A stretch of 64,000 nt of DNA from an uncultured Lachnospiraceae bacterium (lineage in GTDB: Bacteria; Bacillota; Clostridia; Lachnospirales; Lachnospiraceae). Positions 9,921-36,792 of this stretch are shown here, piece after piece. The stretch is taken from assembly GCA_902793335.1 (NCBI GenBank), contig CADBCZ010000002.1, positions 51,337-115,336 of the forward strand, written 5' to 3'. The notes beneath the pieces are model-generated. The model made no database searches. It saw nothing but the letters and a program-made list of their open reading frames with translations, and had not been told where the DNA came from. Numbering within the stretch: the stretch's first letter is position 1; every line of letters starts with the position of its first letter. A program made the translations under genes and the position numbers.

Positions 9921-9965
9921 ATGATAAAAGTCTTATTCATCTGCCACGGCAGGACTATGGGATAA
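9921..9965 (+). repeat. att-like scar 1: truncated 5' end of the LMW-PTP gene
   Basis: An AAAGGAG site and ATG open MIKVLFICHG, the N-terminus of the phosphatase encoded intact at 36319, then diverge (RTMG) to a stop. Bases 9921-9950 match the intact gene at most positions, including the TCTGCCACGGCA block. I read it as the half-site left when an element inserted in the gene's P-loop codons. Confidence 0.75.
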
Positions 9966-10004
9966 GTCCTTATGGTTGGCTGTTTTGGGGCATATTTTGG
10001 TATA

Positions 10005-10033
10005 CCGTGGCAAACAAACAATACTTTTACTAC
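10005..10033 (-). repeat. Inverted att-like core in unit 1
   Basis: Read on the minus strand this is GTAGTAAAAGTATTGTTTGT followed by TTGCCACGG, which matches the forward cores apart from about five positions and again encodes VVKVLFVCHG. It forms an inverted repeat with the forward core at 9921. Confidence 0.7.
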
Positions 10034-10076
10034 GGTAATACTACGAATGACGGAATGAAAAGAGGAAAATGTGAAA

Positions 10077-10235
10077 ATGATAAAGGTACTGTTCGTCTGC
10101 TGGGGCAAAACTACTGCCACAAACCCTTATATTTGGCTGTTTCGGGGCATATTTCGGCATACCGTGGCAAACAAACAATACTTTTACTACGATAATACTA
10201 CGAGTGAGCGAATGAAGGCAGTTGCTTATATATAA
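10077..10235 (+). repeat. att-like scar 2: truncated LMW-PTP 5' end opening a 52-codon frame
   Basis: GAGGAAAATG precedes ATG 10077. The product starts MIKVLFVCWGK, then continues for about 40 unrelated codons through the inverted core. The TGCCACGG core is altered here to TGCTGGGG, so this copy may be dead as an attachment site. Confidence 0.65.
10162..10190 (-). repeat. Inverted att-like core in unit 2
   Basis: This is identical to the inverted core at 10005-10033 and on the minus strand also encodes VVKVLFVCHG. Its flanks (GCATACC before, GATAATACTACGA after) also repeat those of unit 1. Confidence 0.7.
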
Positions 10236-10264
10236 GTAGTCAATCGTTAAAGAGTACATCTACC

Positions 10265-10431
10265 GTTAAAAGGTGTACTGATTCTTACCGGGAGGAAACA
10301 ATTACATAATCGAACTACGCTGACTACCGTTGCCGAAAAGGGGCATAAAACGGTAGTTTTTTGATGGTTATGTAAAGGTTAAAAGGTATCGGGGTAAATC
10401 GTTATAAGGTAATGGAGTATGGTTAAAAGGT
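10265..10431 (+). repeat. Three direct copies of GTTAAAAGGT, possible integrase arm sites
   Basis: Exact copies lie at 10265-10274, 10378-10387 and 10422-10431. The same ten bases occur inverted at 25691-25700, about 150 bases before another att-like scar. The link with att-like sites suggests arm-type binding sites of the lost recombinase. Confidence 0.5.
10323..10363 (+). terminator. Terminator-like hairpin ahead of the restriction operon
   Basis: ACTACCG (10323-10329) pairs with CGGTAGT (10351-10357) and is followed by a T run. It would shield the downstream operon from read-through. The stretch 10432-10539 shows no gene. Confidence 0.5.
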
Positions 10432-10539
10432 TTTGAGGTTATCGTTAAGCGATGTTCATGGTCATCGTGAGGAGTAGGTGTTCTTTTTTTATTTAATGGA
10501 TACAGAATGGATAGAAGTTCGACCAGTGAAAAAATATAT

Positions 10540-10567
10540 TTGACTGGGCAAATATATGTGATATAAT
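10540..10567 (+). promoter_or_regulatory. Promoter of the LlaJI-like restriction operon
   Basis: TTGACT (10540-10545), a 16-base spacer and TATAAT (10562-10567) lie about 50 bases before ATG 10618. The downstream XRE protein is a natural candidate for control of this promoter. Confidence 0.75.
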
Positions 10568-10617
10568 TTTATAGTGTATTATTGACTGTAGTTTTTATTT
10601 AACAAGGGAGATTGAGA

Positions 10618-10845
10618 ATGTTGAGTTATAGTCGCCTTTGGCATATGATTCTTGATAAAAATATGAAGAAAACGGATTTATGTGAAATGGCCGGGATAAG
10701 TAGCAGTACTTTAGCGAAACTCGGAAAGAATGAAATTGTTTCTATAGATGTTCTTGAAAGGATATGCGATACATTAGGATGTGATATAGGCGATATCATG
10801 AGTTTCAAGGAAGGAGACAGTTCGTCAAATGAACAGAAGTTATAA
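10618..10845 (+). CDS. XRE-family regulator (controller-like protein), 75 aa
   Basis: A compact Cro/C1-type helix-turn-helix: KTDLCEMAGISSSTLAKLGKNE is the HTH core, and IDVLERICDTLGCDIGDIM the packing helices. The ATG at 10618 is 9 bases after AGGGAG. A TTG two codons earlier is less likely. The gene overlaps the first methyltransferase by 17 bases and heads the operon, as controller proteins of restriction-modification systems do. Such proteins set the order of methyltransferase and nuclease expression. Confidence 0.88.
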   Translation: MLSYSRLWHMILDKNMKKTDLCEMAGISSSTLAKLGKNEIVSIDVLERICDTLGCDIGDIMSFKEGDSSSNEQKL

Positions 10846-12067
10846 TTTTATAGATTTGTTTGCAGGGTGCGGAGGCTTGAGTGAGGGATTCTATAAACAG
10901 GGCTATAGAGCTTTGCTTCATCTCGAACTTGAAGATGTATTTTGTAAAACATTAAAAACAAGAATGAGACACTATGGTTATTCCGAAGAAGAAGTGGAAA
11001 GAGCAGTTTTATGTGCGGACATTACTTCAGAAGGGATAATTGATGAGATAGACAAAAGAGTCAATGAGGAGGTGGATTTGATAATTGGGGGACCTCCTTG
11101 TCAAGCATTTTCGTCTGTGGGAAGAGCGCAGTCTCCTGATTCTATGAATAGTGACCCAAGAAACTATTTATTTGAAAACTATCTTCAAATTTTAAATCAC
11201 ATAAAACCGAAGATGTTTATTTTTGAAAATGTAAAAGGAATTTTGTCTGCTCATCCAAAAGGAGTGAAAATATTTAATATTATCATTAGGGAAATGAGTA
11301 AAACTTACAATATTGTAAGTGATCCTAAGATTATATTACTAAATGCTGCTGATTATGGTGTGCCACAGATAAGAGAGCGAGTTATTCTTATTGGCGTGAG
11401 AAAGGACATTGATTACATAGATGTAAAAGATGTTTATGCACACATTAAGAAAACGAATTCTGATACGGATTCAACCTTGCCTAATTATGTCACAGTAGGG
11501 GAGGCTATTTTGGATTTACCAAAGCTGAATCCCGGCGAAGGGGCAGAAAAACAAAAAATAAAATCGAAAAAAAAAGTTGAAGGCTTTTTGTCAAAGGTAA
11601 GGTCATCCGATAATGTGGTTTATAATCATGTTGCTCGAAACCATAATGATTTGGATAGAGAAAGATATAGAATACTTAGCGAACATAAAAATTGGCAGTT
11701 AAAAGACTTACAAGAAGTAAGACCAGACCTGATACATCATGATCCTAAGCATTTTGGGAATAGGTATACTGTGCAAGAAAGTGATAAACCCGGAAAGACA
11801 GTGGTTGCTCATTTATACAAGGATGGTAATCTTTTTATACATCCAGATCCCAAACAAGCCAGAACATTTACGGTACGTGAGGCTGCAAGAATTCAGTCTT
11901 TTCCCGATGATTTTGTTTTTGAAGGTTCAAGAACAGACCAATATAAGCAGGTTGGAAATGCGGTACCTCCTTTGATGGCTGAGGCGTTTGCTGAGGCATT
12001 GGGATATTATTTAGATGAAATAGAAAACAAAGAAAACAAAAGGAAGGACATAAAGAATGCCTTATAA
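10829..12067 (+). CDS. DNA cytosine-5 methyltransferase 1 (LlaJI M1-like)
   Basis: 412 residues. Conserved m5C motifs appear in order: I DLFAGCGGLSEGF (8-20), IV GGPPCQAFSSVG with the catalytic Cys (about 90), VI FENVKG, VIII QIRERVILIG, and X QVGNAVPPLMAEA. The target-recognition region lies between VIII and IX (about 200-330) and differs from that of the next gene. The gene overlaps both neighbours, so translation is coupled. Two adjacent m5C enzymes followed by McrB-like and McrC-like proteins is the LlaJI arrangement, in which each enzyme protects one strand of an asymmetric site. The target sequence cannot be deduced here. Confidence 0.95.
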   Translation: MNRSYNFIDLFAGCGGLSEGFYKQGYRALLHLELEDVFCKTLKTRMRHYGYSEEEVERAVLCADITSEGIIDEIDKRVNEEVDLIIGGPPCQAFSSVGRAQSPDSMNSDPRNYLFENYLQILNHIKPKMFIFENVKGILSAHPKGVKIFNIIIREMSKTYNIVSDPKIILLNAADYGVPQIRERVILIGVRKDIDYIDVKDVYAHIKKTNSDTDSTLPNYVTVGEAILDLPKLNPGEGAEKQKIKSKKKVEGFLSKVRSSDNVVYNHVARNHNDLDRERYRILSEHKNWQLKDLQEVRPDLIHHDPKHFGNRYTVQESDKPGKTVVAHLYKDGNLFIHPDPKQARTFTVREAARIQSFPDDFVFEGSRTDQYKQVGNAVPPLMAEAFAEALGYYLDEIENKENKRKDIKNAL

Positions 12068-13256
12068 ATTCATAGATCTTTTTTGTGGAGCGGGTGGTTT
12101 CTCATATGGACTTGAAATGGCGGGTTTTGAGTGCATAGGGGGGATTGAACTCAAAGAAGTTATAGCTCAAACACATCAGCTTAACCACAAACATTCAAAG
12201 ACCATTTTTGGCGATATTAGAGAGATACCGCCGGAGAAATTTGCAGAGATTATTAATACGAATCATGTGGATGTAATAATCGGGGGACCACCATGCCCGA
12301 CATTTTCAACGATAGGGGATGCAAAGATAAGGTCCGTAACAGGGAAACCAACATCAGAGGATCCACGTAACCAATTGTTTTTAGAATATTTAAAATATGT
12401 GGATTATTTTAGACCAGAGATATTTGTAATAGAAAATGTGCCTAATTTCATAACTAAATATAAAGGAAAGATTTTTAATACTGCCGTTCAAATAATAGAG
12501 AGTATTGGAAAAGATGATGAGGGTAACGGAGAGGGCATATATGAAGTGGAAAAGCCTGTTCAGGTTGTAAATGCAGTTTATTATGGCGTACCACAAACGA
12601 GACGAAGAATGATGCTTGTGGCTCATAAAAAGACGAAAGCGAAGTTCGATTACCCAAAACCAACTCATTACTATGATCAGGACGATGATGAATCAAAAAA
12701 GCTATTACCGTGTACGACCGTAGCAGATGCAATAGGTGACCTACCAGACATCACAGATAATTGGCGGATAAGCGAAATGCCATATTCTGAGAATTGCAGA
12801 TTAACAGATTACCAAAAATTAATGAGAAAAAATGGTAACGGTAAAACGGTAAAGAACAATATTTGCAGAATGTCAAATGATAGAGCAAAGCGCGTATTTC
12901 CGCACATGAAACAAGGCAGTAAATACATGGATTTACCGCCAGAGATTCGGAAGATATTACCTTTTAGAGAAGATATCTTTCAGGACAGACTTAAACGTTT
13001 GGTATTAAAGGAACCATCATGGACAGTAATTGCGCATATTGGAATGGATGGATATATGTATATACATCCCACCGAAAACAGAACTCTTTCTGTTCGGGAA
13101 GCGGCAAGGATTCAATCTTTTCCAGATGAGTTTGAATTTATTGGAAATCAGCAGGAGACATATGTTCAAGTTGGAAATGCAGTACCACCTTTACTTGGAA
13201 AAGCAATAGGTAACAGTATAATGGATTATCTTCGTGAAGTGGAAAGGAATGGGTGA
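12057..13256 (+). CDS. DNA cytosine-5 methyltransferase 2 (LlaJI M2-like)
   Basis: 399 residues. Motif I is DLFCGAGGFSYGLEMAGF (6-23), motif IV GGPPCPTFSTIGDAK with the catalytic Cys (about 82), motif VI IENVPN, motif VIII QTRRRMMLVAHK, and motif X QVGNAVPPLLGKAI. It overlaps the first methyltransferase by 11 bases. The divergent recognition region (about 200-310) implies a different target or the opposite strand of the same asymmetric target. Confidence 0.95.
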   Translation: MPYKFIDLFCGAGGFSYGLEMAGFECIGGIELKEVIAQTHQLNHKHSKTIFGDIREIPPEKFAEIINTNHVDVIIGGPPCPTFSTIGDAKIRSVTGKPTSEDPRNQLFLEYLKYVDYFRPEIFVIENVPNFITKYKGKIFNTAVQIIESIGKDDEGNGEGIYEVEKPVQVVNAVYYGVPQTRRRMMLVAHKKTKAKFDYPKPTHYYDQDDDESKKLLPCTTVADAIGDLPDITDNWRISEMPYSENCRLTDYQKLMRKNGNGKTVKNNICRMSNDRAKRVFPHMKQGSKYMDLPPEIRKILPFREDIFQDRLKRLVLKEPSWTVIAHIGMDGYMYIHPTENRTLSVREAARIQSFPDEFEFIGNQQETYVQVGNAVPPLLGKAIGNSIMDYLREVERNG

Positions 13257-13262
13257 TAGGCG

Positions 13263-15104
13263 ATGGCGTATTCATATAGAAAGGCAACAGAAGATCTACT
13301 TGATTATTTAGAGCTAAAAAAAGAAGATGTAAAAATAATCGACAACACGAATGGAAGAGGTTTTGTTTGTAAAGCCAATGGAGAGGATATTGTAATTTTT
13401 GTATATCCGATTAGTTGTAAAGAAAACAACCGACAAAATTTCTTTGATACTCGTGATAGTGGTGCTGCAGAGAGAAAAGTCACATGGAACTATGCTTGTG
13501 AAAATAAAATGAAATACTTTTGTCTGGGAATTAATACAGAACAGGAACGATATAGGAACTATGTTTTGAGCCTTGAAAGCAGTGAAGATTCAATAAGCAG
13601 GGTGTCATATAGAAAGGCTGAATTTTCAACAACAAGTACCGGAACACAGGTCAATATACCAAATGATTTTATTCCATCAAGAAAGGTGGAAAGAATACTT
13701 ACACCCAAGGGTTTTTATATTGTTGCAATTAAAAAAGACTTCATCTGGGACTATTTAGAATTGTTTGATAATAGGCCTTATTTATTCAATGCTGATGATA
13801 GTTATAATGTCGAAGATAGTGAATTGTCAGACGAAAAAACAGCAGAGAATATTTTATTGTATGGTGTACCGGGCTGTGGGAAAAGTCACGAGATAAAAGA
13901 TAAATATTGTAACGATGATAGATTTATGGAAAGAGCAGTATTCCACCCAGATTATACTTACTCTGATTTTGTAGGTCAGATATTGCCCAAAGTCAATACT
14001 GAGGCAGATGGAAGCAGAAAAATTACATATTTATTTGAACCCGGACCATTTACAAGAATACTAAAAGAGGCCGAGGAGGACAAGGAGCATTTCTACTTTT
14101 TAGTTGTAGAAGAAATCAACCGTGGTAATGCTCCGGCCATATTCGGAGATATCTTCCAACTTCTCGATAGGGATGATAACGGAGAGAGTGAATACGGAAT
14201 CAGTAATGAGGCAATTGCAGAATATGTATATGGTGATAAGACCAAGAAAATTACGATTCCGTCAAATCTTTATATCCTTGCTACCATGAATACTTCTGAC
14301 CAAAACGTATTCACTCTCGATACAGCTTTCAAGCGTAGATGGTCAATGAAACGTATTGAGAATAATATTGATGGGTGCAAGTATGGTACCCACAAAGTAT
14401 GTAATACAGGAGTAGAGTGGAGGGTATTCGCTAAAACGGTTAATGACCTTATTATAGATATATCAACGGAGAACTTGAGTAATGAAGATAACAGGCTCGG
14501 AGCATATTTTGTTAAAGAGTCTGAACTTGATGATGCTGATAAGTTTGGCGAAAAAGTTCTTATGTACCTGTGGAACGATGCTTTCAAATATGATCATGAC
14601 AAGGTTTTTAAGGCAAAATATCATACCTTGGATGAACTGATAGACGGATTTAAAACGGACGGTCTCAATGTATTTGAAAAAGCAGATTTATTTGTTAAGA
14701 CACCTATCGGTGATGCGGTTATTGAAGGAAGGCAAGTAGATGTTGACAGGTATCTTGAAGGAAAGAAAGATTATCTAATAGCCTATTACAAAGGTTTATT
14801 GGAAGCAGTTAAAAGTAGAGTTCCAGAAACAAAAGATACAAGTACTGGGTCTCTTCAGTATGCTGCATGGAGATCTGATAATATTTCAAAGTCAAGTTTT
14901 GCAGATGTTTATTTGCAGTCTGATAAAATGGTTGTCTTTACAGAAATACCAAAGAAGCCTAAGAGCATAGGCGAGGAACTTGAGAATGATGGACATAAGA
15001 ATCATTATTATCGGATTGAATATAGTGAAGATATGATTAGTGAGATTGTAGAAATAATAGTTGAATCATATGAACAATTGAAAAAAGGTGATGCGAATGC
15101 TTAA
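13263..15104 (+). CDS. McrB-like AAA+ GTPase subunit (LlaJI R1-like)
   Basis: 613 residues. An N-terminal domain of about 190 residues, presumably for DNA binding, precedes the AAA+ module. Walker A is GVPGCGKS (about 201-208), the McrB signature is VVEEINRGNAPAIFGDIFQL (about 279-298), and a sensor segment MNTSDQNVFTLD leads to AFKRRWSM (about 341-360). McrB proteins form GTP-driven hexamers that translocate DNA and activate the McrC nuclease. Here the partner is the next gene, which overlaps it by 8 bases. Together with two m5C methyltransferases this makes a modification-dependent-type machine used as a conventional restriction enzyme. Confidence 0.92.
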   Translation: MAYSYRKATEDLLDYLELKKEDVKIIDNTNGRGFVCKANGEDIVIFVYPISCKENNRQNFFDTRDSGAAERKVTWNYACENKMKYFCLGINTEQERYRNYVLSLESSEDSISRVSYRKAEFSTTSTGTQVNIPNDFIPSRKVERILTPKGFYIVAIKKDFIWDYLELFDNRPYLFNADDSYNVEDSELSDEKTAENILLYGVPGCGKSHEIKDKYCNDDRFMERAVFHPDYTYSDFVGQILPKVNTEADGSRKITYLFEPGPFTRILKEAEEDKEHFYFLVVEEINRGNAPAIFGDIFQLLDRDDNGESEYGISNEAIAEYVYGDKTKKITIPSNLYILATMNTSDQNVFTLDTAFKRRWSMKRIENNIDGCKYGTHKVCNTGVEWRVFAKTVNDLIIDISTENLSNEDNRLGAYFVKESELDDADKFGEKVLMYLWNDAFKYDHDKVFKAKYHTLDELIDGFKTDGLNVFEKADLFVKTPIGDAVIEGRQVDVDRYLEGKKDYLIAYYKGLLEAVKSRVPETKDTSTGSLQYAAWRSDNISKSSFADVYLQSDKMVVFTEIPKKPKSIGEELENDGHKNHYYRIEYSEDMISEIVEIIVESYEQLKKGDANA

Positions 15105-16335
15105 AGATTTTTGCAGAGTATGCAATGTCTTTGATGATGATTTTATCGGGCTTAAATTTGTTGAAGGAAAACCCGAGGTCACTTTTCCGAGGGGATATCG
15201 TAAGTCTGAAAAAGATGAAGATGTAAGGAGAGACATTATTCATCTGCTGACGATTCTACATAAGTTTACTGACAGGCGAGAGGGAACAAGTAAATCAAAT
15301 ACAAAAGATGGAGAGACCTTATCTTTTCCAATTCTTGCATATCAGTACATTATTTACAATTTCCTCGCAAATGGATATTACGCAGAAAAAGATGTGGAAT
15401 ACAGAGTCAGCGACCGGGGAAAAATCAGCTGGAAGAGAACCATACAGCAGATAAAGCCTGTGGTGGACGATGGAAATGTGGTATATCTTGATTTTGTGAC
15501 AAAGAAGAGTATCACAAAATCTGGTATCATCACGAAGATACATGAATACTGCGTATATGAGAGTTTTGCTAAACTCGGGTGGCTTTATTTAAACAGCACC
15601 TTTGTGCCGAGAAAGCCGACTATAAAATTCAATAAGAAGATGTTCATTTCCGTGTTGAATGATGCTCTTAAGAACACTTTTAATAACAATAAGAAGATGC
15701 TCTTTACCAGCATGATAGAGATTATCAAACAGGCTGATGAAAAAGCAGACTTCCCGGATGTTTCATATGGTGTTACGAAGTTTGAACATGTGTGGGAAAA
15801 TCTGATAGACCATGTATTTGGCGAAGATAATAAAGCGGATTATTTTCCGCACGGTCACTATACAATAATCAAGGATGGCAACAGTGTAGAGAGTAGTGCC
15901 CTCGAGCCTGACACTATTATGAAGGTCGGAGACCGACTCTTTATTTTGGATGCGAAGTATTACAAGTATGGAGTGATTCCGAACCCCGGATTTCTGCCGC
16001 CAACATCGTCTATCCATAAGCAGATTACTTATGGAGATTATGTGTTTACAAGCCGGTTTGCAGAAGAGGATAAAATATATAATGCATTCATTATTCCATT
16101 TAAGGCAGAGCCGGATGATGACATACTTAAGTTTGTAAGTATCGGTACAGGAGATTGGATTACTTATGATAAGAATACAGCAAATTATAAGTACGTGCTT
16201 GTAATTCTCCTCGACACCAAATATATCATGGACACTTATTCGAAACATAACATGAAGGACATTGATATGATGGCCGACTTCATAGAGACAAAGCTAAGTG
16301 AGTTTATAGACCAGAAATATCATAAACAAAAATAA
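15097..16335 (+). CDS. McrC-like / LlaJI-family restriction nuclease subunit
   Basis: 412 residues from ATG 15097 (AAAAGGTG six bases upstream). Other in-frame starts at 15088 and 15091 sit inside that ribosome site. The C-terminal half holds a PD-(D/E)XK core: EPDTIMKVGDRLFILDAKYY (about 270-289) supplies the Asp and the D-A-K catalytic strand. The N-terminal half is the region that contacts the McrB-like hexamer. Its place as last gene of the operon after two methyltransferases and an McrB-like protein matches LlaJI. The next gene begins 30 bases downstream, possibly on the same transcript. Confidence 0.9.
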   Translation: MLKDFCRVCNVFDDDFIGLKFVEGKPEVTFPRGYRKSEKDEDVRRDIIHLLTILHKFTDRREGTSKSNTKDGETLSFPILAYQYIIYNFLANGYYAEKDVEYRVSDRGKISWKRTIQQIKPVVDDGNVVYLDFVTKKSITKSGIITKIHEYCVYESFAKLGWLYLNSTFVPRKPTIKFNKKMFISVLNDALKNTFNNNKKMLFTSMIEIIKQADEKADFPDVSYGVTKFEHVWENLIDHVFGEDNKADYFPHGHYTIIKDGNSVESSALEPDTIMKVGDRLFILDAKYYKYGVIPNPGFLPPTSSIHKQITYGDYVFTSRFAEEDKIYNAFIIPFKAEPDDDILKFVSIGTGDWITYDKNTANYKYVLVILLDTKYIMDTYSKHNMKDIDMMADFIETKLSEFIDQKYHKQK

Positions 16336-16365
16336 ATCCTTTCCACGGGGGATTATGGAAGGTTG

Positions 16366-17244
16366 GTGAGGACAATCGAAACGCATTATTTGATTGACTA
16401 CGAAAATGTACATAGTGATGGTCTGACAGGATGTAAGGATTTGAGTAGCACAGACCATATCATTATATTCTTTACTGATAACGCAAAGAATATAGATATG
16501 ACAAATATCTTCGATCATGGAGATGCAACACTTGATATGGAGAAGGTACCTGCCGGAAATCAATCCGCAGATATGCATATTGTATCGTATTTGGGATTTT
16601 TGGCTGGGAACTTTGGAAAATCATGTAAAGTTGTAATTGTTAGTAAAGATACTGATTTTGATAATGTAATTAAATATTGGAAATCAAAAACAGGAATTAA
16701 TGCTTCCAGAACTCAGCAAATAAAAGCTGTGAAGCCTAAACAGGTGAGTACTCCCACCAAACAGCATAGTCAGACATCTAAGCAAAAAGTAAGTGGAGAA
16801 AAGAAGACAAAGCTGAATCAGGAGGTCATGCAGGCAATCCGAAAAGCGGGATATGATGCCACTGTTGCAAATACGGTAGCTCAAATTGCTACAGGCTTAT
16901 ATGGTGATGAGCATATGCTTTCAGAGGTACATAATGCATTGAAGGAGCGTTATACAGACTATCTTGACGTCTATAGTGCTGCAAAGCCTGTTTTGTCAAA
17001 GTATGCTGATTCAGGTGTTGTGCAGAAACCAAAGGTAAATTCAAAGTCATCTATTAATTCGGAAATTCAAAAGCTTTTAAGTAAAGCGGGATTTTCGAAT
17101 GAGATAATAGCGTATGTTACATCAACAGCTGTGAAGAATCTTGGAGTTAAAAACGGAAAGCAACAGACATATAGGTCAATTATCTCGAAGTACGGTCAGG
17201 CTAAAGGATTAAACATTTATAACCATATAAAAAAGCATATATAG
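16366..17244 (+). CDS. NYN/PIN-like nuclease with two C-terminal helical repeats
   Basis: About 292 residues from GTG 16366; a TTG at 16363 is an alternative. GGAAGG lies just upstream, so the start is uncertain. The N-terminal domain has NYN/PIN acidic positions: LIDYENVHSDG (Asp near residue 10), IFFTDNAKN, a GNQSADMHI segment with an Asp, and VIVSKDTDFDN. These would bind metal for RNA cleavage. A basic linker of about 30 residues leads to two copies of one helical module (about 143-205 and 222-291) that share RKAGYD/SKAGFS starts. It follows the LlaJI-like operon by about 30 bases and may be an added RNA-degrading defence arm; that role is inferred. Confidence 0.8.
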   Translation: MRTIETHYLIDYENVHSDGLTGCKDLSSTDHIIIFFTDNAKNIDMTNIFDHGDATLDMEKVPAGNQSADMHIVSYLGFLAGNFGKSCKVVIVSKDTDFDNVIKYWKSKTGINASRTQQIKAVKPKQVSTPTKQHSQTSKQKVSGEKKTKLNQEVMQAIRKAGYDATVANTVAQIATGLYGDEHMLSEVHNALKERYTDYLDVYSAAKPVLSKYADSGVVQKPKVNSKSSINSEIQKLLSKAGFSNEIIAYVTSTAVKNLGVKNGKQQTYRSIISKYGQAKGLNIYNHIKKHI

Positions 17245-17257
17245 GAGGAGCAACAGT

Positions 17258-17731
17258 ATGCAGTTCAATACAGAAATATTCAGCCAGTTCGATAAGAAGT
17301 GGGCATTGCTCACAGCCGGAAACATCGAAGATTTTAATACTATGACAATATCATGGGGTGGGCTTGGAACCATTTGGAATAGGCCTGTTGCCACGGTTTA
17401 TGTCAGAGAGTCCAGATACACCCACGAGTTCATGGACAAGAATGATTATTTCACGGTTAGTTTCTACCCAGAGGTGTGTAAAAAGGTACTCGGTGTTCTT
17501 GGAGCTAATTCCGGCAGGGATATCGACAAGATACATGATAGCGGTCTTACACCAAAGGCTGTGGGTGATTCGGTATCTTTTAAAGAGGCTGAAGTAACTC
17601 TTGTCTGCAAGAAGCTCTTTATGCAACGACTCGATATTGCCAAAATACCTGCCGATGTTGCAAGTGTCGTGTATGCCGATAATGATGCTCATGATATGTA
17701 TATCGGTGAGGTTGTGGATATCATTGCATAA
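17258..17731 (+). CDS. Flavin reductase-like FMN-binding protein
   Basis: 157 residues. The fold signature is visible in LLTAGNIEDFNTMTISWGG, a cofactor-binding strand and loop, then VYVRESRYTHEFMDKND and FTVSFYP. This is the split-barrel family of flavin reductases and FMN-binding proteins. A full AGGAGG precedes the ATG by 8 bases. It lies between a NYN protein and a PLD-type protein, an odd setting for a redox enzyme. It could be a cargo gene, or supply reduced flavin to an unknown partner. Confidence 0.85.
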   Translation: MQFNTEIFSQFDKKWALLTAGNIEDFNTMTISWGGLGTIWNRPVATVYVRESRYTHEFMDKNDYFTVSFYPEVCKKVLGVLGANSGRDIDKIHDSGLTPKAVGDSVSFKEAEVTLVCKKLFMQRLDIAKIPADVASVVYADNDAHDMYIGEVVDIIA

Positions 17732-17753
17732 CTACGGAGGGAGCTGATAATTA

Positions 17754-18755: not shown

Positions 18756-18797
18756 GATTGTTGTGGGATATAAGTAAAGCCAGTATTATATAAAAAT

Positions 18798-18830
18798 GAA
18801 GGCAATCTGCATATATAGCAGACTGCCTTC
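18798..18830. terminator. Bidirectional terminator between convergent genes
   Basis: GAAGGCA-A-TCTGC pairs with GCAGA-C-TGCCTTC around a 7-base loop. It separates the plus-strand PLD gene from the minus-strand sigma-like gene, and A-rich/T-poor flanks favour its use on the minus strand. Confidence 0.75.
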
Positions 18831-18839
18831 AAAGCATAA

Positions 18840-19568: not shown

Positions 19569-19581
19569 GTTTTGTTAGGGA

Positions 19582-27542: not shown

Positions 27543-27607
27543 AAAATATCAAATGCAGCCTAAGTCAGAAATGGCTTGAGCGTGTTTGTGGTTATTGGAG
27601 GTAAAAA

Positions 27608-29611: not shown

Positions 29612-29645
29612 GCATTAAAAAGAAATAGTTTTGATTTGAAATAAT

Positions 29646-31259
29646 TTGGAGGTGTTACTTATAGATACGAAGGAAATTTCAGAAAAACCTGAAGGTTGGC
29701 CTAAGAATCGCAGGGAATGGAAACTAGATGTATTATGTGAAAGAATGGAAGAATTTAAGAATAATCCAACACATAAAAATAGAGAGATTTTAATAGCATT
29801 AGCCAGTGAACATGATATGAATGAAACTTCTGGATATGGACTGGTTCGTATAACAGAATATGAAGTAGGACTAATTAATTATTTATATTTAGTTAGTACA
29901 GCATATCAGATTAATTCAGTTAAAGTGTATTTATATGATCTAATTTCTGAGGCGACATATATTCATAAGTGGATGTTTAATATGAATCCGGTTTTAGGAA
30001 AGGATGGAAATGAGGATCAATTTGTAGAAGCATATAATGGATTGGACTTGCCACTTAAACTTTATTATTTGGCATATCAAAAATTTATAGTAGAAAAAAA
30101 TGACGATTTTGCTACACAATTAATTACTGTCATCCGTGAAGTGTTGATAGTCGATGAGGATGATGAATTTATAGATTCAATTACGCACGCATTTGTTTCT
30201 ATGATGAATGATCTTAGCTATATGAGAGGAAGTAAAAAGCAATCAATCTGGAAGTTTTCAAGAGAAGAATTGTCTCTGTTATTTGAACTAGAAGCGGAAT
30301 TGCTTAAGAGAAATAATGAATCACCTATAGAGCGCCCGACAAAAGGTGTGTTGATGACACAAATAAGTAATTTTATTTTGAAGTCTAGAAATGGGTACAA
30401 TGAAGATTATATTTGCAAATATCTTCCAATTGAAGTTGCAAGAGAAAGTGTAAAAAATCACCAGATTTGGATGAAGAAAACTACGTTGTTAAATGACGAA
30501 CGTGAACAAAGGGTTATACCAGAATTGTTTGATGATAAATCTTGGATTACATATAAATGGGTTGATGATATTGATTTTACGGCTACAAGAATTTATTACG
30601 TTTCATCATTTAGTAAAAGTGTTAATAATTCGGACATGCAGGATGGATATGGACAGTGCCTATATGGTTATAAGAATGATAGAATATCTGAACTAATAGC
30701 GCCTATTGGAATATGGCATTTGAAGAAAAGGGATGGCATAGAAAATGATATGCCGGATAAAATGGAACGTCCATTTATATCACAAACATTAGCGTTTGAT
30801 GTTATATATGATGTTGAGGAAGCCAAACGGGAGTTGACGTATTTGTTTGGAATTATTGATATGTTTAATATGAGCAATGCAGATAAAAAGAACTTCTTAG
30901 AAGAGATAATGCAATATTGGATTTTGTCAGTAAAGGATGCTAAATGGTCTGGAGAACGAGAAAGAAGATATGTGATTTTTATATATGATAATTATGATTA
31001 CAGAGAAACAGAAATTGATGATACATTTCTAAAAGTGAAAACATCAATTTTTCTTACTCCTGATTTTATCATAGGGAAAAATCCTAGTAGATATGAGATC
31101 CTTTATCAACTAAATGCAAAAAGACATGCACTATATTCAAGAGAATACATGTTATGCAAAAATTGTTTGCTTCAAGATTATGATCAGGCCAGAAAAATGC
31201 CTGAGAAATGTCCGGTTTGTGGTTCGAAAAACGTAGAGCTTATAATTGAAGATGAATAG
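29646..31259 (+). CDS. Unknown protein with C-terminal zinc ribbon, partner of the KAP NTPase
   Basis: About 530 residues, family not recognised. The body is acidic and helical. The C-terminus has two Cys pairs, CKNC and CPVC, about 17 residues apart, forming a zinc ribbon. The start is unclear: TTG 29646 lies in the ribosome site itself; GGAGGTG (29648-29654) is followed six bases later by in-frame ATA 29661, where an ATG would be expected; the first in-frame ATG is at 29745. Either TTG or ATA is used, or a start mutation has lowered expression. It lies 34 bases after the KAP gene on the same strand. Confidence 0.7.
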   Translation: MEVLLIDTKEISEKPEGWPKNRREWKLDVLCERMEEFKNNPTHKNREILIALASEHDMNETSGYGLVRITEYEVGLINYLYLVSTAYQINSVKVYLYDLISEATYIHKWMFNMNPVLGKDGNEDQFVEAYNGLDLPLKLYYLAYQKFIVEKNDDFATQLITVIREVLIVDEDDEFIDSITHAFVSMMNDLSYMRGSKKQSIWKFSREELSLLFELEAELLKRNNESPIERPTKGVLMTQISNFILKSRNGYNEDYICKYLPIEVARESVKNHQIWMKKTTLLNDEREQRVIPELFDDKSWITYKWVDDIDFTATRIYYVSSFSKSVNNSDMQDGYGQCLYGYKNDRISELIAPIGIWHLKKRDGIENDMPDKMERPFISQTLAFDVIYDVEEAKRELTYLFGIIDMFNMSNADKKNFLEEIMQYWILSVKDAKWSGERERRYVIFIYDNYDYRETEIDDTFLKVKTSIFLTPDFIIGKNPSRYEILYQLNAKRHALYSREYMLCKNCLLQDYDQARKMPEKCPVCGSKNVELIIEDE

Positions 31260-31435
31260 TAATTAGAGAGCATTTCTACTACGTTTTTACTACGATTGAT
31301 GTCTGTGTATTGCATAATTTTGCTACAATTTGCATTTTTACATACATATTCATTGAAAGCTGTAAATGCCCCGGAGATTTTGCAAAACCTAGTAAAACTA
31401 CGCGGTATTTATCAAAATATGAAGGAGAAATTTAC

Positions 31436-31486
31436 ATGATAAAAGTCTTATTCGTCTGCCATGGCAATATATGCAGATCGATTTGA
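31436..31486 (+). repeat. att-like scar 4: longest truncated LMW-PTP 5' end
   Basis: GAAGGAG precedes ATG 31436. The frame reads MIKVLFVCHGNICRS, the complete phosphatase P-loop C-x5-R-S, then Ile and a stop. It matches the intact gene further than the other scars, so the crossover region extends at least through this point in some events. The sequence to its left (31260-31435) has TTTACTACG motifs, no gene, and similarity to the stretch before 9921. Confidence 0.75.
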
Positions 31487-31492
31487 AAATTA

Positions 31493-31596
31493 TGTATTTT
31501 CAAGGGTTTTACGACATGATAAAGTGACTTATACCCCCATTGTACCTCTATTTTTATTTTTAAATGTATTTATTAACCAAACTGTTCTCGATAAAA
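31493..31596 (+). repeat. Left-end repeat of class B elements, copy 1
   Basis: About 104 bases (TGTATTTTCAAGG through CTGTTCTCGATAAAA) recur at 34578-34684 with scattered differences, each time just after an att-like scar. The two elements therefore share a left end. Confidence 0.8.
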
Positions 31597-31723
31597 TGAA
31601 TGATATTTGTCACGTCTAAAAATGTTTTGAAAACTATCTGAAGACAGAGTAATAACATAAAATATTGAATAATAACAAATGATATGTTATTATATATAAA
31701 AATATGTTACAAGGAGACGCGAT

Positions 31724-32674
31724 ATGAATAAACAGTTAGAGCAATATTTTGATTGTAAAGTTAAAATTGCAGAATACAAAAATAAATTACCACTGCCAAT
31801 TTTTATGACTGTGCGTGATATTACAATGGTTGAAATATATGGCGTTAACTTTGCTATTGTTGATGTTATGAAAGAGACGGAATTAAGTATTGCTGCGATG
31901 AAAAAGCAGAAGGCAAAATATGAGGAAGCATTACAGTGTCCTATAGCATATCGGGTGTCGTTAAACAGTGTGTCTATGAGAAATGCAATGGTGAAAAACG
32001 GAGTTCCATTTGTGGACTTACCGGGAAATGTTTTTTTGCCATTTATGGGGATAATATTGCTGGATGTCTATAAAAAACAGCTTATCAAAGCGGACAAAAT
32101 GATGCCCGCAACGCAGATGGTGTTCCTTGAATTGTTGTATATGAATGATGAGGAATCTATATTGAAAAGCGAGGCCGCAAACAAGCTCAATTTAACAAAA
32201 ACCTCTATTACAAGAGCAACAGCTCAATTAGAGAAAATGGGACTTATCAGGCAGATGAAATCCGGAACAGAGATTTCTATTATGAGGAATTACTCGCGCA
32301 AAGAGTATTATGAAAATGCAAAAGCATATTTGATTAATCCCGTTCAAAAAGAACTTACAATTCTGCGAAATGAAGCGTCTTTTGAATCATTTACTGCAGG
32401 TGAAACTGCTCTTAGTTATAAGTCAGAATTGAATCCACCCAGAATTGAGGAATGTGCTATCTACAAGGGTGAGGAAGTTGTTGATCATTTAGAAATTGTT
32501 GATGCAAGATCAGAAGACCCGGACGATTGTTTGAAGCTACAATTATGGAAATACAATCCTTCTTATTTTGCAAGAGAAGGCTGTGTTGACCCTGTTTCGT
32601 TGGCATGTACATTTAAAGGTAATGAAGACGAAAGAATAGAAATGAGTATTGAGCAACTGTTGGAGAAAATATAA
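31724..32674 (+). CDS. AbiEi-like winged-helix antitoxin/regulator
   Basis: 316 residues. A central winged helix-turn-helix (ILKSEAANKLNLTKTSITRA then TAQLEKMGLIRQ, about 147-180) resembles MarR/AbiEi regulators. The C-terminal part has YKSELNPPRIEECAIYKGEE, as in the AbiEi-like proteins that pair with a nucleotidyltransferase. The next gene begins right after its stop and is a broken nucleotidyltransferase. ACAAGGAG precedes the ATG. In AbiE systems this protein neutralises the toxin by repressing or modifying it. It appears intact while its partner is not. Confidence 0.75.
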   Translation: MNKQLEQYFDCKVKIAEYKNKLPLPIFMTVRDITMVEIYGVNFAIVDVMKETELSIAAMKKQKAKYEEALQCPIAYRVSLNSVSMRNAMVKNGVPFVDLPGNVFLPFMGIILLDVYKKQLIKADKMMPATQMVFLELLYMNDEESILKSEAANKLNLTKTSITRATAQLEKMGLIRQMKSGTEISIMRNYSRKEYYENAKAYLINPVQKELTILRNEASFESFTAGETALSYKSELNPPRIEECAIYKGEEVVDHLEIVDARSEDPDDCLKLQLWKYNPSYFAREGCVDPVSLACTFKGNEDERIEMSIEQLLEKI

Positions 32675-33427
32675 ATGGTACTGGGATTAGATTCATTTAG
32701 AGAAAAGTTTAAGGATTATGCAGATTATTATACTATTATCGGCGGGACTGCCTGTGATATTTTGCTTGCAGAAGCGGATCTGCCATTTCGGGCAACAAAA
32801 GATATTGATATGATTTTAATTATGGAAGATAACTTTCCGGAATTTGCTGCTATATTTTAGGAATATATAAAAGAAGGCGGATATAAGTGTGGATGGAAGA
32901 ATGAAGAAGATATGCGTTTTTATCGTTTCACAGAGGGCAAAATTGGTTATCCTACTATGATTGAGTTGTTTTCAAGAAAGCCGGGTTATCATCTTGAAAT
33001 AGAAGAGGGAATCATTCCGATTCATATAGATGATGATGTTTCCAGTTTATCTGCGATTCTTCTGAATGATGACTTCTACAATTTTATGATGTCAGGACGC
33101 AGAGTGATTGATGGTATTGGAGTTCTGGGTGCATAGTATCTGATTCCGTTCAAAATGTATGCGTGGATCAACCTACTGGACAGAAAAAGAGCCGGTGAAC
33201 ATGTCAATGACAAGGATTTAAAGAAGCATAAATATGATGTATTCCGATTGTTACAGATTGTTACGGCGGGAACAAAAGTTGAATCAGAGGGATTGGTGAT
33301 AGAAAGTATTCAAAGATATATTGAAGAAATCAGTGTCTTAGATGAATCAGAAGTAAGGCTTATACAGATGGGAATGCCGTTTGATAGAGATAAGGGCGTG
33401 GAGTTACTAAAAGAGATTTATTTGTAA
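32675..33427 (+). pseudogene. AbiEii-like nucleotidyltransferase with two in-frame TAG codons
   Basis: One continuous frame of 251 codons is split by TAG at 32858-32860 and TAG at 33134-33136. The nucleotidyltransferase motif is present: TIIGGTACDIL supplies the G-G-S/T-like loop, and RATKDIDMILIM the Asp pair. Protein-like sequence continues after each stop (EYIKEGGYKCGW; YLIPFKMYAW), and no frameshift is needed. By family feel the first TAG replaces Trp and the second Glu, pointing to two separate nonsense mutations. It starts one base after the regulator stop. Confidence 0.8.
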
Positions 33428-33544
33428 GCAACTATGGTCTGGAATTTGATGTAATTTTGAATTGTTTGGAAAAACTACAAGAAGAGATTCATAAGCTTTG
33501 AATATATTGCCGTTCAAGAAAAGGTCAATTGAGGTGCTGTAGCT

Positions 33545-34153
33545 ATGGCAAATGCTTCTTTATATAAAATAGTTTCATTTTTTTCAGAAATTTCTTCAGT
33601 AAAGAGGTAAATGACCCTTTTATTAAAGATATTCTTGAAGAAAGTTTGGACATACATGAATGGAGACAAGGAAATCTAGATGTTTTTGAACCAGATTACT
33701 TTGTTGATAATATTCCTTTCGAATTTACTTTGGCTTCTGATAGTAAAAAGAAAACTAATTTTATTCAGAAAATGATGAAAGGAACATATGAGTCGGTAAA
33801 TATTGAATCGGATGTATTTGCATACATTGAGGAGAGAATAGCGGATAAAGCAACTAGAAAATACTCTGTAGGGGGGAGTTTGTCTTTGTGTATTGTGTTT
33901 GTTAGATTTGTTTAATTGGGTGTCTGACGAGTATGGTTCAGTTTTTCATGTATTAACAGACTATCCTAGAAAACAATTCTTTGAAATGATTAAGCGTAAA
34001 TACATAAATACTGGAATTTTTAATAATATTTATATAGCTATTCCAGATATGTGTGGTAAATGGTGGACGTTTGATGTGCTTATGGATATCAAAGTTCCGA
34101 TTGTAATTACTCCAGAACAAATGAAGAGTGGTAAATACCCGTTTATAATTTAA
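33545..34153 (+). pseudogene. Unknown gene broken by two homopolymer frameshifts
   Basis: ATG 33545 with GAGGTG upstream starts MANASLYKIVSFF. The frame then shifts at a T7 run (about 33580) into VNDPFIKDILEESLDIHEWR, and again at a G6 run (33871-33876) into LCLLDLFNWVSDEYGS, ending at TAA 34151. Joined, it would encode about 200 residues. The family is not recognised. It is class B element cargo in decay. The gap 33428-33544 holds nothing clear. Confidence 0.6.
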
Positions 34154-34492
34154 AAGCAGATATATGATGAATATATTAAGTAATGGATAAGATACTATGT
34201 ACACATGTGATAATTAAGAAGGTTTGAGGTGTAGTATATGTGCATATTATGCGTTATATGATTTGCAGAAGATGGTGGATAAGGCAAACAACATTATGAT
34301 GAGAAATGAAAAGACGAATTGTGTAAATGCTGATTATGGTATACAGCTATGGAAACGCTATTCTTTAAGTGTGCTGGAAGCTTTATCCCCCCTGTTTGTA
34401 CCCCTATTCTTTCAAAAATATACGATTTTTTGAGATGTTATACGATGATGCGTGATTTTGATAATAAGTCTCAAAGCCAGTTATATCAAGGT
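34154..34492. other. Gene-poor right end of a class B element
   Basis: Only a weak TTG-initiated frame (34224-34433) is present, which I do not accept. At 34385-34420 there is a degenerate copy of the TTATACCCCC...CTATTTTT segment of the class B left-end repeat. Confidence 0.4.
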
Positions 34493-34572
34493 TTGAGACG
34501 ATATGAGAGGTTATAAGGATTATGATAAAAGTACTGTTCGTCTGCCACGGCAAAAACTGTGCTTTTGATTGA
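34493..34572 (+). repeat. att-like scar 5 with class B right end
   Basis: TTGAGACGATATGAGAGG (34493-34510) and TTATAAG lead to ATG 34522 and MIKVLFVCHGK, then NCAFD and a stop. From 34493 to 34553 it is almost identical to 36290-36350 before and into the intact phosphatase gene, with about four differences. Confidence 0.8.
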
Positions 34573-34577
34573 AACAC

Positions 34578-34684
34578 TGTATTTTCAAGGCTTTTGCGAC
34601 ATGGCAAAGTGACTTATACCCCTGTTCTACCCCCTATTTTTGTTTTTAAATGTATTTATTAACCGGACTGTTCTCGATAAAAAA
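34578..34684 (+). repeat. Left-end repeat of class B elements, copy 2
   Basis: This is the counterpart of 31493-31596, located at the same distance after an att-like scar. It marks the left end of the element that carries the DUF3800 gene. Confidence 0.8.
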
Positions 34685-34714
34685 GTATGATTGATTTAAT
34701 TGAAAAACAAAAAA

Positions 34715-34740
34715 TCGCACCTGCTAAACTGCAAGTGCGA
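34715..34740 (-). terminator. Terminator of the DUF3800 gene
   Basis: TCGCACCTGC and GCAAGTGCGA form a 10-bp stem with one mismatch. On the minus strand it is followed by GATTTTTTG. The stretch to 34840 adds a second imperfect inverted repeat (TAATATTAC/GTAATATTA at 34750-34810). Confidence 0.7.
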
Positions 34741-34840
34741 CACTTTTGTTAATATTACGAGTCCTACGCAGCTCCAGGACGGAACAACATATGACTCTAG
34801 TAATATTATACACCATATTTGTATGAAGTCAAACAAAAAA

Positions 34841-35665
34841 TTATTCAGATAAATCATTAAAAAAATCTTCACTTAAAAGGTTTTCATCATCATTATCAGA
34901 AGTAGTAAATTTCTCGCTTACAGGATAGGAGAAGTTTTTGCCCATTTTCTGAAAGCCATATTCCAGATAATGTGATTTGGGGATGAAGTTATTTTCTGTA
35001 AGATTATGTAGTTTGGTGAAAAGCGATACAATCCATTCCTGAAATTCTGTTTCCGGTTCTTTTTGGTCAAGCTCATTTTCGTAATAATGCCTCACGATAC
35101 CAGCAAATATATCGGCGAATTGCACTGCAGGAGTTACAGCAGAGCTGACAAACAAAGGCATTTCTAATATGTGATGGAAAGAACGCCCAAACTTCGTTTT
35201 GAACAGAAAACCTATAATTGCCTCAGCAATTTTTCGGTCAGCATCCTCATGTACCTCATCAAATATCATCATTGCTTTGCCATAGTGATGATGATTACAG
35301 TAAAACTCAACTTTTTTTTAAAGAAGGTAATACTGCTTCGGAAGATGATGTTCTGGAACAATAATTGGTTCATCTGGCTTGTCCATAATTACGGCAAAAA
35401 TAGCAGCGTCATAAGAGGCAATAATGTCTACCATGCCTTCAACATATGCTTTATTATTTGTACGATTCTTGGTAATGGTCGCTTCACGAATAAGTTTTGT
35501 AGACTTTATTTCGTCCTGTTTTCCATAAATAGAATCTTTTAATTTGTATATTTGATTTGTGATCGGTTTAATATCATTCTCATGGATACAGACACCAAGC
35601 AGGATAGGATTCTTGGTTGAATCTGTAGGGCGAGGGTATCCACTTTCATCTATAAATGTAAGCAT
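34841..35665 (-). pseudogene. DUF3800 protein interrupted by an in-frame TAA
   Basis: The full frame is 275 codons. The N-terminus MLTFIDESGYPR is the DUF3800 hallmark (a possible acidic catalytic pair). Downstream MMIFDEVHEDADR and FADIFAGIVRHYYENE are the other conserved blocks. A TAA at 35318-35320 follows LPKQYYLL, and the same frame continues KKVEFYCNHHHYGKAMMIF, so this is a nonsense change and not a frameshift. DUF3800 genes occur in defence islands and may be RNase H-like; the activity is unproven. It is the only gene of the last class B element. Confidence 0.8.
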
Positions 35666-36289
35666 GTAAATATATTGCTCCTATGTTAAGTAATGAATTG
35701 ATTATACTATAAAATGGGTTAACATACTACATGATTTATATAGATTTATTGAAAGCGCATATTATCAATTGTTATGCGACAGGGTAATGTGAGTGAAGAA
35801 GTTCCTTCGGGAACTTCTTTTGTGCTATATTGAAAACAAGAGAGAATATCATGTTGTCACGATTGTAATATAATAAATGAGACTAATAAAAAGAAAAAGT
35901 GTCGGTATAAATGTCGGTATATATTGCTAAAATGATGGTATAAAATATATATAAATAAAACTGAAAAGCTGTGTTAGTGTTAGGTATATTGATAGAATTC
36001 ATAAGAGTCAACATATACATCCTGTGGAGAAAGCGATGAATAAGCTCATCTTATCTGCTTTATACTTAGTAAGATAGAATGGAAAATAGTATTGCATATT
36101 TTAAGAGAAAGTAGTATCTTTTAAATAAGAATTGCGGTGGATATCTTCGGATTACACCTAGAAGAACTTGATGCGTCGGGTTCTTTTTTTAAATAATTAT
36201 CAAAAAATGTATTAGTTGTAGACTGTTTTATGATAGAATAAACACTATCGGGAACAGTCCTTTTTTATTAAAAAGATTGTTAAAATGGC
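35666..36289. other. Intergenic stretch inside the last class B element
   Basis: No supported gene. A 13-codon frame (ATG 36037, MNKLILSALYLVR) with GGAGAAAG upstream is too short to call. A clear hairpin at 35796-35819 and a weaker one near 36160-36190 are terminator-like. Confidence 0.5.
35796..35823 (+). terminator. Hairpin terminator with TTCG tetraloop
   Basis: AAGAAGTTCC and GGAACTTCTT form a 10-bp stem closed by TTCG, followed by TTG. No plus-strand gene ends just before it. Confidence 0.65.
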
Positions 36290-36318
36290 TTGAGACGATA
36301 TGAGAGGTTATAAGAATT
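36290..36318 (+). promoter_or_regulatory. Class B right end supplying the ribosome site of the intact LMW-PTP gene
   Basis: TTGAGACGATATGAGAGG and TTATAAGAATT precede ATG 36319 and are shared with scar 5 at 34493. Leader and ribosome site of the phosphatase are thus element-derived. GAGAGG is a modest Shine-Dalgarno. Confidence 0.7.
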
Positions 36319-36792
36319 ATGATAAAAGTACTATTTGTCTGCCACGGCAATATCTGTCGTTCGCCAATGGCTGAGTTTATATTAAAAGATATGGTAAAGA
36401 AATGTGGAGTAGAGGATTCGTTTTATATCAAATCTGCTGCAACAAGTACGGAGGAAATATGGGGCGACAGGGGTAACCCTGTCTATCCGCCTGCTAAGAA
36501 GGAACTTGCAAAACATGGAATTTCATGCGAGGGTAAGTTTGCTGTACAGATAAAAAAAGAGGACTACAAAAAATATGATTATATCATAGGTATGGATATG
36601 GCTAATATTCGCAATATGGAAAGAATATGTGGAGGCGACCCGGAGAGGAAGATGTACCGCCTGTTATCATTTGCAAGTATCAACAGAGATGTTGCAGATC
36701 CGTGGTATACAGGAGATTTCAAGACAACGTACTATGATGTGTGTTTGGGGTGCAGTGCGTTTTTAGAGTATGTTCTGACAGATTGTTATTGA
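36319..36792 (+). CDS. Low-molecular-weight protein tyrosine phosphatase, intact
   Basis: 157 residues, the full family length. MIKVLFVCHGNICRSPMAE holds the P-loop C-x5-R-S (Cys 8, Arg 14), with the nucleophilic Cys and phosphate-binding Arg. The general-acid loop is DVADPWYTGDF (Asp-Pro near residue 130). The enzyme removes phosphate from tyrosine or arginine residues of proteins. Its first codons are reproduced in five truncated copies upstream (9921, 10077, 25850, 31436, 34522), so the gene is the integration target, restored by the last incoming element. The P-loop codons are highly constrained, which makes them a stable target like those in tRNA genes. Confidence 0.95.
   Translation: MIKVLFVCHGNICRSPMAEFILKDMVKKCGVEDSFYIKSAATSTEEIWGDRGNPVYPPAKKELAKHGISCEGKFAVQIKKEDYKKYDYIIGMDMANIRNMERICGGDPERKMYRLLSFASINRDVADPWYTGDFKTTYYDVCLGCSAFLEYVLTDCY

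Follow-up and report, generated by a model that had tools for sequence, protein, structure and literature searches.

Copies of a phosphatase gene start in the window

The DNA stretch analysed here (the window) comprises 64,000 nucleotides of contig CADBCZ010000002.1 (positions 51,337 to 115,336) from the genome assembly GCA_902793335.1 of an uncultured Lachnospiraceae bacterium, and coordinates count from its first letter. It contains an array of repeats, each of which is a copy of about 31 bp of the start of a gene encoding a low-molecular-weight tyrosine phosphatase (LMW-PTP, PTP in the following). A search with a degenerate pattern of this 31-bp core, permitting up to three mismatches, yielded six matches on the + strand, at positions 9921, 10077, 25850, 31436, 34522 and 36319, compared with an expectation of 0 from 100 dinucleotide shuffles of the window. 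Five copies are broken and are termed scars below, and one is complete. The reading frames opening at 9921, 25850, 31436 and 34522 comprise 14, 13, 16 and 16 amino acids, respectively, and that at 10077 comprises 52 amino acids, beginning with MIKVLFVCWG and being unrelated thereafter. The sole full gene, at 36319, specifies a protein of 157 amino acids that matches PF01451 with 106 bits. All five broken copies diverge from this gene by codon 16, and the homology ends at CACGGCA, within the codons of the catalytic C-x5-R loop. A preliminary description of the window had placed PTP starts at exactly these six positions, each with its own ribosome site and only the last continuing into a complete gene; all of this was borne out, including a purine-rich, ribosome-site-like stretch that is visible by eye ahead of each ATG. 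When no mismatch was permitted, the degenerate pattern matched five times in the whole assembly of this genome, always within the array; the copy at 10077 is the sixth and was matched only when one mismatch was allowed.

The likeness between copies outside the core is also clear, a point on which the preliminary description had made its view of serial insertion depend. The right flanks of 9921 and 10077 are identical in 115 of 141 aligned columns (core included) and those of 31436 and 34522 in 107 of 137, and 28 of the final 30 bp before the core agree between 34522 and 36319.

Elements delimited by the core copies

The array consists of at least six elements, named E0 to E5, because the copy at 9921 marks the right end of an element with integrase and kinase genes and does not represent the original gene start. 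The earlier estimate of at least four elements is amended accordingly. An original, decayed outermost 5' end of the PTP gene was sought in the window from 5001 to 10000 and was not found. The features of the array are as follows, where att denotes an attachment site.

7706..8332, + strand: tyrosine integrase of E0, truncated at its 5' end (PF00589, 9.3e-31)
8434..9735, + strand: protein-kinase-like cargo of E0, between integrase and att site (PF00069, 1.1e-18; PD-T4-6-like in PADLOC, 4e-22)
9736..9951, + strand: right end of E0, comprising an arm with ACTAC-type repeats and the att core (9921-9951), assigned from matches elsewhere and from the motif
9952..10107, + strand: E1, a gene-free element of 156 bp ending in core 10077-10107, assigned from its likeness to locus L063
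10002..10033 and 10159-10190, - strand: inverted, diverged core copies in family-A left arms (24/32 matches each)
10108..25880, + strand: E2, an integrase-less element or composite of 15.8 kb with core 25850-25880 and ACTAC-type repeats at both ends
10829..16335, + strand: LlaJI-like restriction-modification operon of E2 (two C5 methylases, an AAA_5 protein and RE_LlaJI)
17754..18755, + strand: PLD-like protein of E2, weakly DrmC-like
19582..19947, - strand: PemK/MazF-like protein of E2 (PF02452, 6.5e-13)
20103..22856, + strand: NACHT-domain protein of E2 (PF05729, 3.7e-9; no PADLOC match)
23164..25226, + strand: AAA_21 and RloB pair of E2 (AbiLi/AbiLii in PADLOC)
25881..31466, + strand: E3, with an AAA_14/DUF4143 gene, an integrase remnant, a KAP NTPase, an uncharacterised gene and core 31436-31466
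27384..27539, + strand: C-terminal integrase remnant of E3 (52% identical to the L088 integrase over its residues 371-423)
31467..34552, + strand: E4, with a MarR-like winged helix-turn-helix protein, short frames, core 34522-34552 and TACCCC-type repeats at both ends
34553..36349, + strand: E5, with a DUF3800-like remnant (match below the Pfam cut-off) and a right end that is the present PTP start (core 36319-36349)
36319..36792, + strand: complete LMW-PTP gene, the attachment gene (PF01451, 2.1e-30)

The integrase fragment of E0 shows 65% identity to residues 211-423 of the integrase at locus L088 and groups in the integrase tree with PTP-adjacent integrases, the nearest being that of L248 (85% over 196 columns); its integrase-cargo-core layout recurs in L248 and L249. 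With a minimum match length of 150 bp, the right arm at 9734-9951 matches 20 other places (24 matches, four of them repeats of a place), and these matches end at 9951-9954 whether a gene or a scar comes next. At one further place the match extends to 10073, as a left arm of similar sequence adjoins it. Together with its left core, E1 is identical to positions 172-358 of L063 at 163 of 187 positions without insertion or deletion, compared with 311 of 483 aligned columns for the respective PTP genes. The inverted core copy about 50 bp inside family-A elements is also present in L034, L063, L260, L261, L262 and L263, and could be a second core-type site. Within E2, the stretch 22995-25114 shows 93.2% identity over 2125 bp to the same-genus locus L118, where it begins 487 bp past a scar; E2 additionally encodes PIN7 and flavin-reductase-like genes. 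A relative of the KAP gene of E3 likewise lies between scar and PTP gene in L122, and the cargo gene behind the integrase in L249 is matched by the gene at 29646 (67.5% over 1641 bp). E4 and E5 are both short and look decayed.

Integrases and their association with the core

At related loci, integrases of about 400 amino acids end shortly upstream of the PTP gene, and all five that were scanned combine the Tn916 arm-binding domain PF02920 with the catalytic domain PF00589. One such integrase was searched in 200 genomes of the family, and loci were picked by integrase score alone. Matches at E 1e-30 or better were obtained in 110 of the 200 genomes, and 30 of the 31 best matches were examined, leaving out a second match in one genome. 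The PTP core lies 145-533 bp downstream on the same strand in 28 of these 30 loci (27 full genes, one scar), and in the other two it follows one cargo gene at 1711 and 1896 bp. Accordingly, an integrase stands beside the target gene at 30 of 30 integrase-selected loci, compared with remnants only in the window.

Seventeen weaker matches (42-52% identity), hand-picked from a longer list, were examined as well. Six of them adjoin a PTP gene (L250, L251, L252, L254, L256 and L257) and eleven do not. A single sister clade (42-46% identity, support 100/100) unites ten of these eleven, and none of the ten shows a core in the 2.7-3.3 kb of downstream sequence examined. The tree contains seven rows from PTP-selected loci and a row for the window that was assigned to the PTP class by hand, and L235 and L236 were omitted as the same places as L248 and L249. 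Among plasmids, 39 records carry a related integrase, all below 60% identity, with the best at about 45%. These data support the use of the PTP-start site by Tn916-Int-like tyrosine integrases.

The enzyme found at the site also bears on the idea that a large serine recombinase, as in staphylococcal cassette chromosome (SCC) islands with their Ccr enzymes, produced the tandem att scars and the integrase-less units. SCC islands form similar composite arrays with inverted repeats at their ends, and the inverted core copy in the family-A arms would suit such an origin. The enzyme at the PTP site is nevertheless a Tn916-type tyrosine integrase, to which the arm-type direct repeats are suited, and a crude motif scan of an early set of loci revealed a single serine-recombinase-like open reading frame, in L057 and 3.7 kb upstream of the gene. 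With a tyrosine integrase in place of a Ccr serine recombinase, an SCC-type island was rejected, and accretion by a serine recombinase is very improbable.

Arm repeats

Paired repeats follow the core, spaced 11 bp apart in nine of 15 elements, and recur before the next core. They consist either of TTTA and a variable segment (CACC, CAAC, CCAA, CGAC, CTAC or ACTC) or of TTGTACCCC. In the window, the ACTAC type occurs in E0 to E3 (in E3 at the right end only) and the TACCCC type in E4 and E5 (in E5 at the left end only). The longest words common to the left and right arm had a mean length of 10.8 within the 15 elements versus 8.2 in shuffled pairings, and none of 20000 permutations reached as high a value, where related elements among the 15 make the pairings non-independent. 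A first version with 13 elements and longer arms had given a mean of 11.5 within elements versus 9.0; the arms were then shortened, and two viral loci and the permutation were added. The integrases of Tn916 and lambda possess arm-type binding sites, and by analogy the paired repeats are putative sites of this type.

These arms also bear on a simpler origin of the array, namely tandem duplication and decay of the PTP gene, with the fragments as remnants of duplicates. Such an origin would account for the start codon and ribosome-site-like stretch on every fragment, and two full PTP frames are indeed possible on one contig (L036). It is contradicted by the common break point, since the five fragments of the window and, by eye, most of 18 scars outside it depart from the gene within 16 codons, and by flanks that consist of repeated arms with integrase-type repeats and hold no gene sequence. 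Moreover, integrases picked without knowledge of the PTP gene lie at the site in 30 of 30 loci. Duplication and decay was rejected on the break point and the arms, and there is hardly any likelihood left for it.

The site in related genomes

Within the genus of the window, the core (up to one mismatch) is present in 17 of 26 genomes, its own included. In a sample of 397 genomes of the family, taken as Lachnospiraceae because most of the gene's named relatives to which a family is given belong there, 186 carry the core pattern and 51 carry it twice or more (by eye, own genome included), where two cores in a genome may represent two whole genes or separate contigs; the reversed pattern, used as control, was found 0 times among the matches listed. 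Also among the matches listed, at least 18 contigs of other genomes hold several cores, with a uniform orientation on each contig and neighbours 1.6-22 kb apart. L166 and L170, from a set of 20 fetched regions, each contain three scars and a full gene. The densest array of this set is L171 (G377:C6), with five broken PTP starts within about 10 kb.

A comparison of eight same-genus loci separated the two sides of the gene. At least two downstream genes are common to all 28 pairs (73-94% identity; 98-99% for L123/L124), and an upstream gene is common to none of the 28 pairs, compared over no more than 6 kb to the left of the leftmost core (1.3-2.3 kb in L074, L106 and L124). Short or duplicate loci (L001-L024, L125-L160) were left out of this comparison, and L001-L024, mostly replaced by longer stretches of the same places, were also left out of the scar comparison. 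In pairs of genomes, compared with a minimum match length of 300 bp, G433 and G440 share 96.2% identity over 3 kb from the PTP start on and no match before it. G002 and G011 have both outer flanks in common (left 89-90%, right 96.9%) and differ in the contents beside the core; in G011 the array is divided between two contigs, and the leftmost scars lie about 1.5 kb past the end of the left match. Between G360 and G423, both flanks (97.9% and 90.7%) and an internal stretch of 1.1 kb are conserved. The left flank gene of the window, a permease gene, sits away from the PTP gene in its genus.

Contigs end within 600 bp upstream of the PTP gene in 20 of 80 loci versus one of 80 downstream (p = 2e-5), as would be expected if assemblies break at repeats. 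Serial insertion would account for the quarter of the fetched contigs that end just upstream of the PTP gene.

Junctions and the probable point of exchange

Pairs of junctions locate the change of sequence at the core. In G437 a stretch of 8.37 kb runs through the core into a full phosphatase gene, whereas in G436 a 99.88% identical stretch is followed, past the same core, by another element. Between G437 and G436 the PTP genes are 73.5% identical over 438 bp. Near-identical DNA occupies the site in different species. The G436 stretch lies on a small contig and may be misbinned, and the contrast at the core stands regardless. The IMG/VR records L272 and L270 share 6.05 kb at 97.8% and show the same switch between phosphatase and element at the core. 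Repeats of the form TTTAACTCAA flank the core of L270 on both sides, as would be expected of a phage attachment site (attP) or a tandem junction. Direct repeats within the target codons and a gene restored by the inserted element were found both in the window and in its relatives.

The 156-bp element of L063 narrows the position further. In its phosphatase, C-W-G replaces C-H-G, with TGG instead of the CAC of the left scar, which would place the exchange 3' of that triplet, at GGCA. Since the change from His to Trp arrives with the right end of the element, an insertion can rewrite a residue of the active-site loop. Trp in place of His in the P-loop (CWGNICRS) was observed in L063 (position 328), L218 and L257.

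Probable repeated integration at the gene start

We consider it very probable that the array arose by repeated site-specific integration of elements whose Tn916-Int-like integrases have the initial ~31 bp of the LMW-PTP gene as their recognition site. Strand exchange, presumably by tyrosine-recombinase chemistry, would take place in or beside CACGGCA, the His-Gly-Asn codons of the C-x5-R loop. An incoming circle would carry, at its right end, its own copy of the gene start together with a ribosome site; integration would join this start to the gene body, which would then be expressed from a promoter of the element, and the old start would stay behind as a scar. The rebuilt core would serve as acceptor for the next element, and the elements carry arm-type direct repeats at both ends, variable in sequence around a constant core. 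The preliminary description had likewise proposed serial tyrosine-recombinase insertion that restores the gene, with the att core on the catalytic C-x5-R codons. Serial insertion at these codons gains support from the adjacency of integrases, the arm repeats, the synteny breaks at the core and the junction pairs that differ in what comes after it.

Several observations weigh against this interpretation. No intact integrase of the PTP clade was detected in the window or in the assembly of the genome, which could have missed one, being 98.5% complete in 157 contigs. No excised circle was seen, a junction resembling attP is present in L270 only, and eight phage or viral records that were tested lack a terminal repeat. 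The arms agree by eye in only nine of 15 elements; those of L161, L165, L122, L169 and L167 disagree and those of L273 come only close to agreement, which suggests composites or decayed ends. G423, which shares the left flank of G360, has no recognisable left scar. No genome was found that has both flanks of the window but lacks the array; the comparison of the LMW-PTP locus in relatives that had been suggested earlier revealed the expected multiple 5' fragments (on the at least 18 contigs of other genomes), but no empty site with both flanks of the window. The genus of G215, also considered for an empty site, comprised a single genome. Within the DNA available, an integrase match lies upstream in 24 of the 80 named PTP loci, in 18 of the 24 within 400 bp of the core; the remaining loci end early, are decayed, empty or differently used. 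L255 falls inside the PTP part of the tree and has no core in 3.3 kb downstream. The integrase also led to 34 IMG/VR loci: a core-like match lies downstream in 14 of them (six mismatches to the pattern allowed), the sequence breaks off within 3 bp in eight, and the other 12 lack a match, seven of these covering at least 3.6 kb downstream. No core follows within 4.9 kb in a Ruminococcus phage whose integrase is 55% identical. Because of these viral loci and this phage, related integrases are not all located at the PTP gene.

Since the window holds only integrase remnants and mainly defence-like cargo, its array is probably fixed or dependent on integrases supplied in trans. The latter leads to a further explanation, an active array of cassettes in which integrase-less units, the 156-bp one included, move by means of the integrases of other elements on an integron-like platform. 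In favour of it, the ACTAC arm type of E1 and E2 is that of E0, the element with the longest integrase fragment in the window; the 156-bp unit occurs in two species with 163/187 identical positions versus 311/483 for the PTP gene; and AAA_21/RloB and KAP cargo recurs at the site in other genomes of the genus. On the other side, no movement was observed, and L063 is the single other copy recognised at the 156-bp length. The interior of the unit was matched in eight of 397 genomes, the window's own included, and in the other seven no second core follows about 156 bp on, the match being the left arm of a longer segment in four of them. Mobilisation of this kind is possible, though we regard it as unlikely. 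When the 156-bp unit and its cores were folded as single-stranded DNA, the prediction was not clearly better than for shuffles (z -1.1), and an integron cassette array in the strict sense was rejected, the integrase being of the Tn916 type and not IntI.

Taking repeated integration as the basis, we tentatively propose a broader role, which is rather doubtful at present: the LMW-PTP gene may serve gut Lachnospiraceae throughout the family as a platform on which accretion still goes on, where unrelated elements (mobilizable elements, prophages, defence cassettes lacking an integrase and even a gene-free unit of 156 bp) stack and move independently or in trans by way of one constant P-loop core common to many integrases and different arm-repeat codes, and where newcomers rewrite the promoter and first codons of a signalling phosphatase, as with the replacement of His by Trp.

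Comparison with known integration systems

In the dusA islands a tyrosine integrase inserts into the 5' end of a protein-coding gene and a new 5' end is supplied (PMC4482086). Both systems have the integrase as the common feature of elements with diverse cargo and short, semiconserved direct repeats (PMC4482086). The PTP elements differ in their target, LMW-PTP (PF01451), in the Tn916-type integrase (PF02920) and in their hosts, mostly Lachnospiraceae and other Clostridia, as opposed to the proteobacterial hosts of dusA integrases (PMC4482086). With LMW-PTP as target, membership in the dusA-associated integrase family was rejected. Tandem arrays are frequent at the PTP site.

Tandem accretion is known for integrative and conjugative, integrative and mobilizable, and cis-mobilizable elements (PMC5704250), and in both cases integrase-less units retain their att sites (PMC5704250). 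Several tandem elements, each bounded by the same att core, were found in the window, L166, L170 and L171. In contrast to the accretion described (PMC5704250), the PTP array has a 5'-end target, up to five scars per region (window, L171), a 156-bp unit and variable arms on a constant core. The ssrA islands of Dehalococcoides form many tandem islands with a short repeat of the target gene and specialised cargo, about half of them (15 vs 16) without an integration module (PMC3146451); they involve a serine recombinase and target an RNA gene at its 3' end (PMC3146451), whereas the PTP array involves a tyrosine integrase and 5' codons. The PTP integrases share PF02920 and PF00589 with that of Tn916, and one Tn916-Xis match was obtained among the scanned cargo proteins. 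Tn916 integrates with little target specificity and is not flanked by direct repeats (PMC4701971), unlike the integrase clade at the PTP site, whose best 30 loci are all at a PTP gene. The 5'-end integration targets ftsK, rbgA and ebfC are also known (PMC4701971).

A paper describing LMW-PTP as integration target was not found in a literature whose coverage was thin for subscription papers and preprints; the available portion of the main text of an integrase-bioprospecting study (PMC12884075) contains no phosphatase. The preliminary description had known of no account of this target, and none was found for PTP; 5'-end insertion and tandem accretion have already been described at other targets (dusA, ftsK, rbgA, ssrA). 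LMW-PTP is accordingly a new target gene, widespread and often serially occupied, for the known process of site-specific accretion, and not a new kind of process. As a precise boundary that can be searched for, the PTP core gives access to mobile and defence cargo across a large family of bacteria, and natural integrases that target a conserved coding sequence are on offer. With a constant core and variable arms, the number of elements that a site can hold without cross-excision becomes a testable question.

Cargo of the elements

Defence-like cargo is clear in the window array. Outside the window the cargo is mixed, comprising RepA_N, IstB-like, MobA/MobL, Tn916-Xis, restriction and Abi proteins together with a P-type ATPase and a fumarate-reductase-like pair; the last two are part of other arrays, as is an ABC transporter. 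RepA_N was found three times and MobA/MobL and Tn916-Xis once each among 89 cargo proteins, and none of these in the Pfam-scanned proteins of the window. The PADLOC tallies (386 families for 76 cargo proteins, 478 for 89 cargo proteins and 188 for 69 downstream proteins) do not demonstrate an enrichment of defence functions in the cargo, because they count families and not proteins and because the downstream set has type I restriction matches.

The record of Monoglobales phage CHVD 5762 (L303, PV036456.1), which has a related integrase, terminates within such a phosphatase gene, and prophages therefore probably use the site too. Of the view that the locus is a landing site for defence islands, the defence-like cargo of the window stands, and the mixed cargo elsewhere and the phage record at the same gene speak for a wider range of elements. 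In L303 a DNA methyltransferase is encoded between the integrase and the attachment site. Strong type I restriction-modification matches were observed among the 69 scanned proteins downstream of PTP genes, 18 of which come from the window (36930-63777), where these matches are probably located at around 45.7-59 kb.

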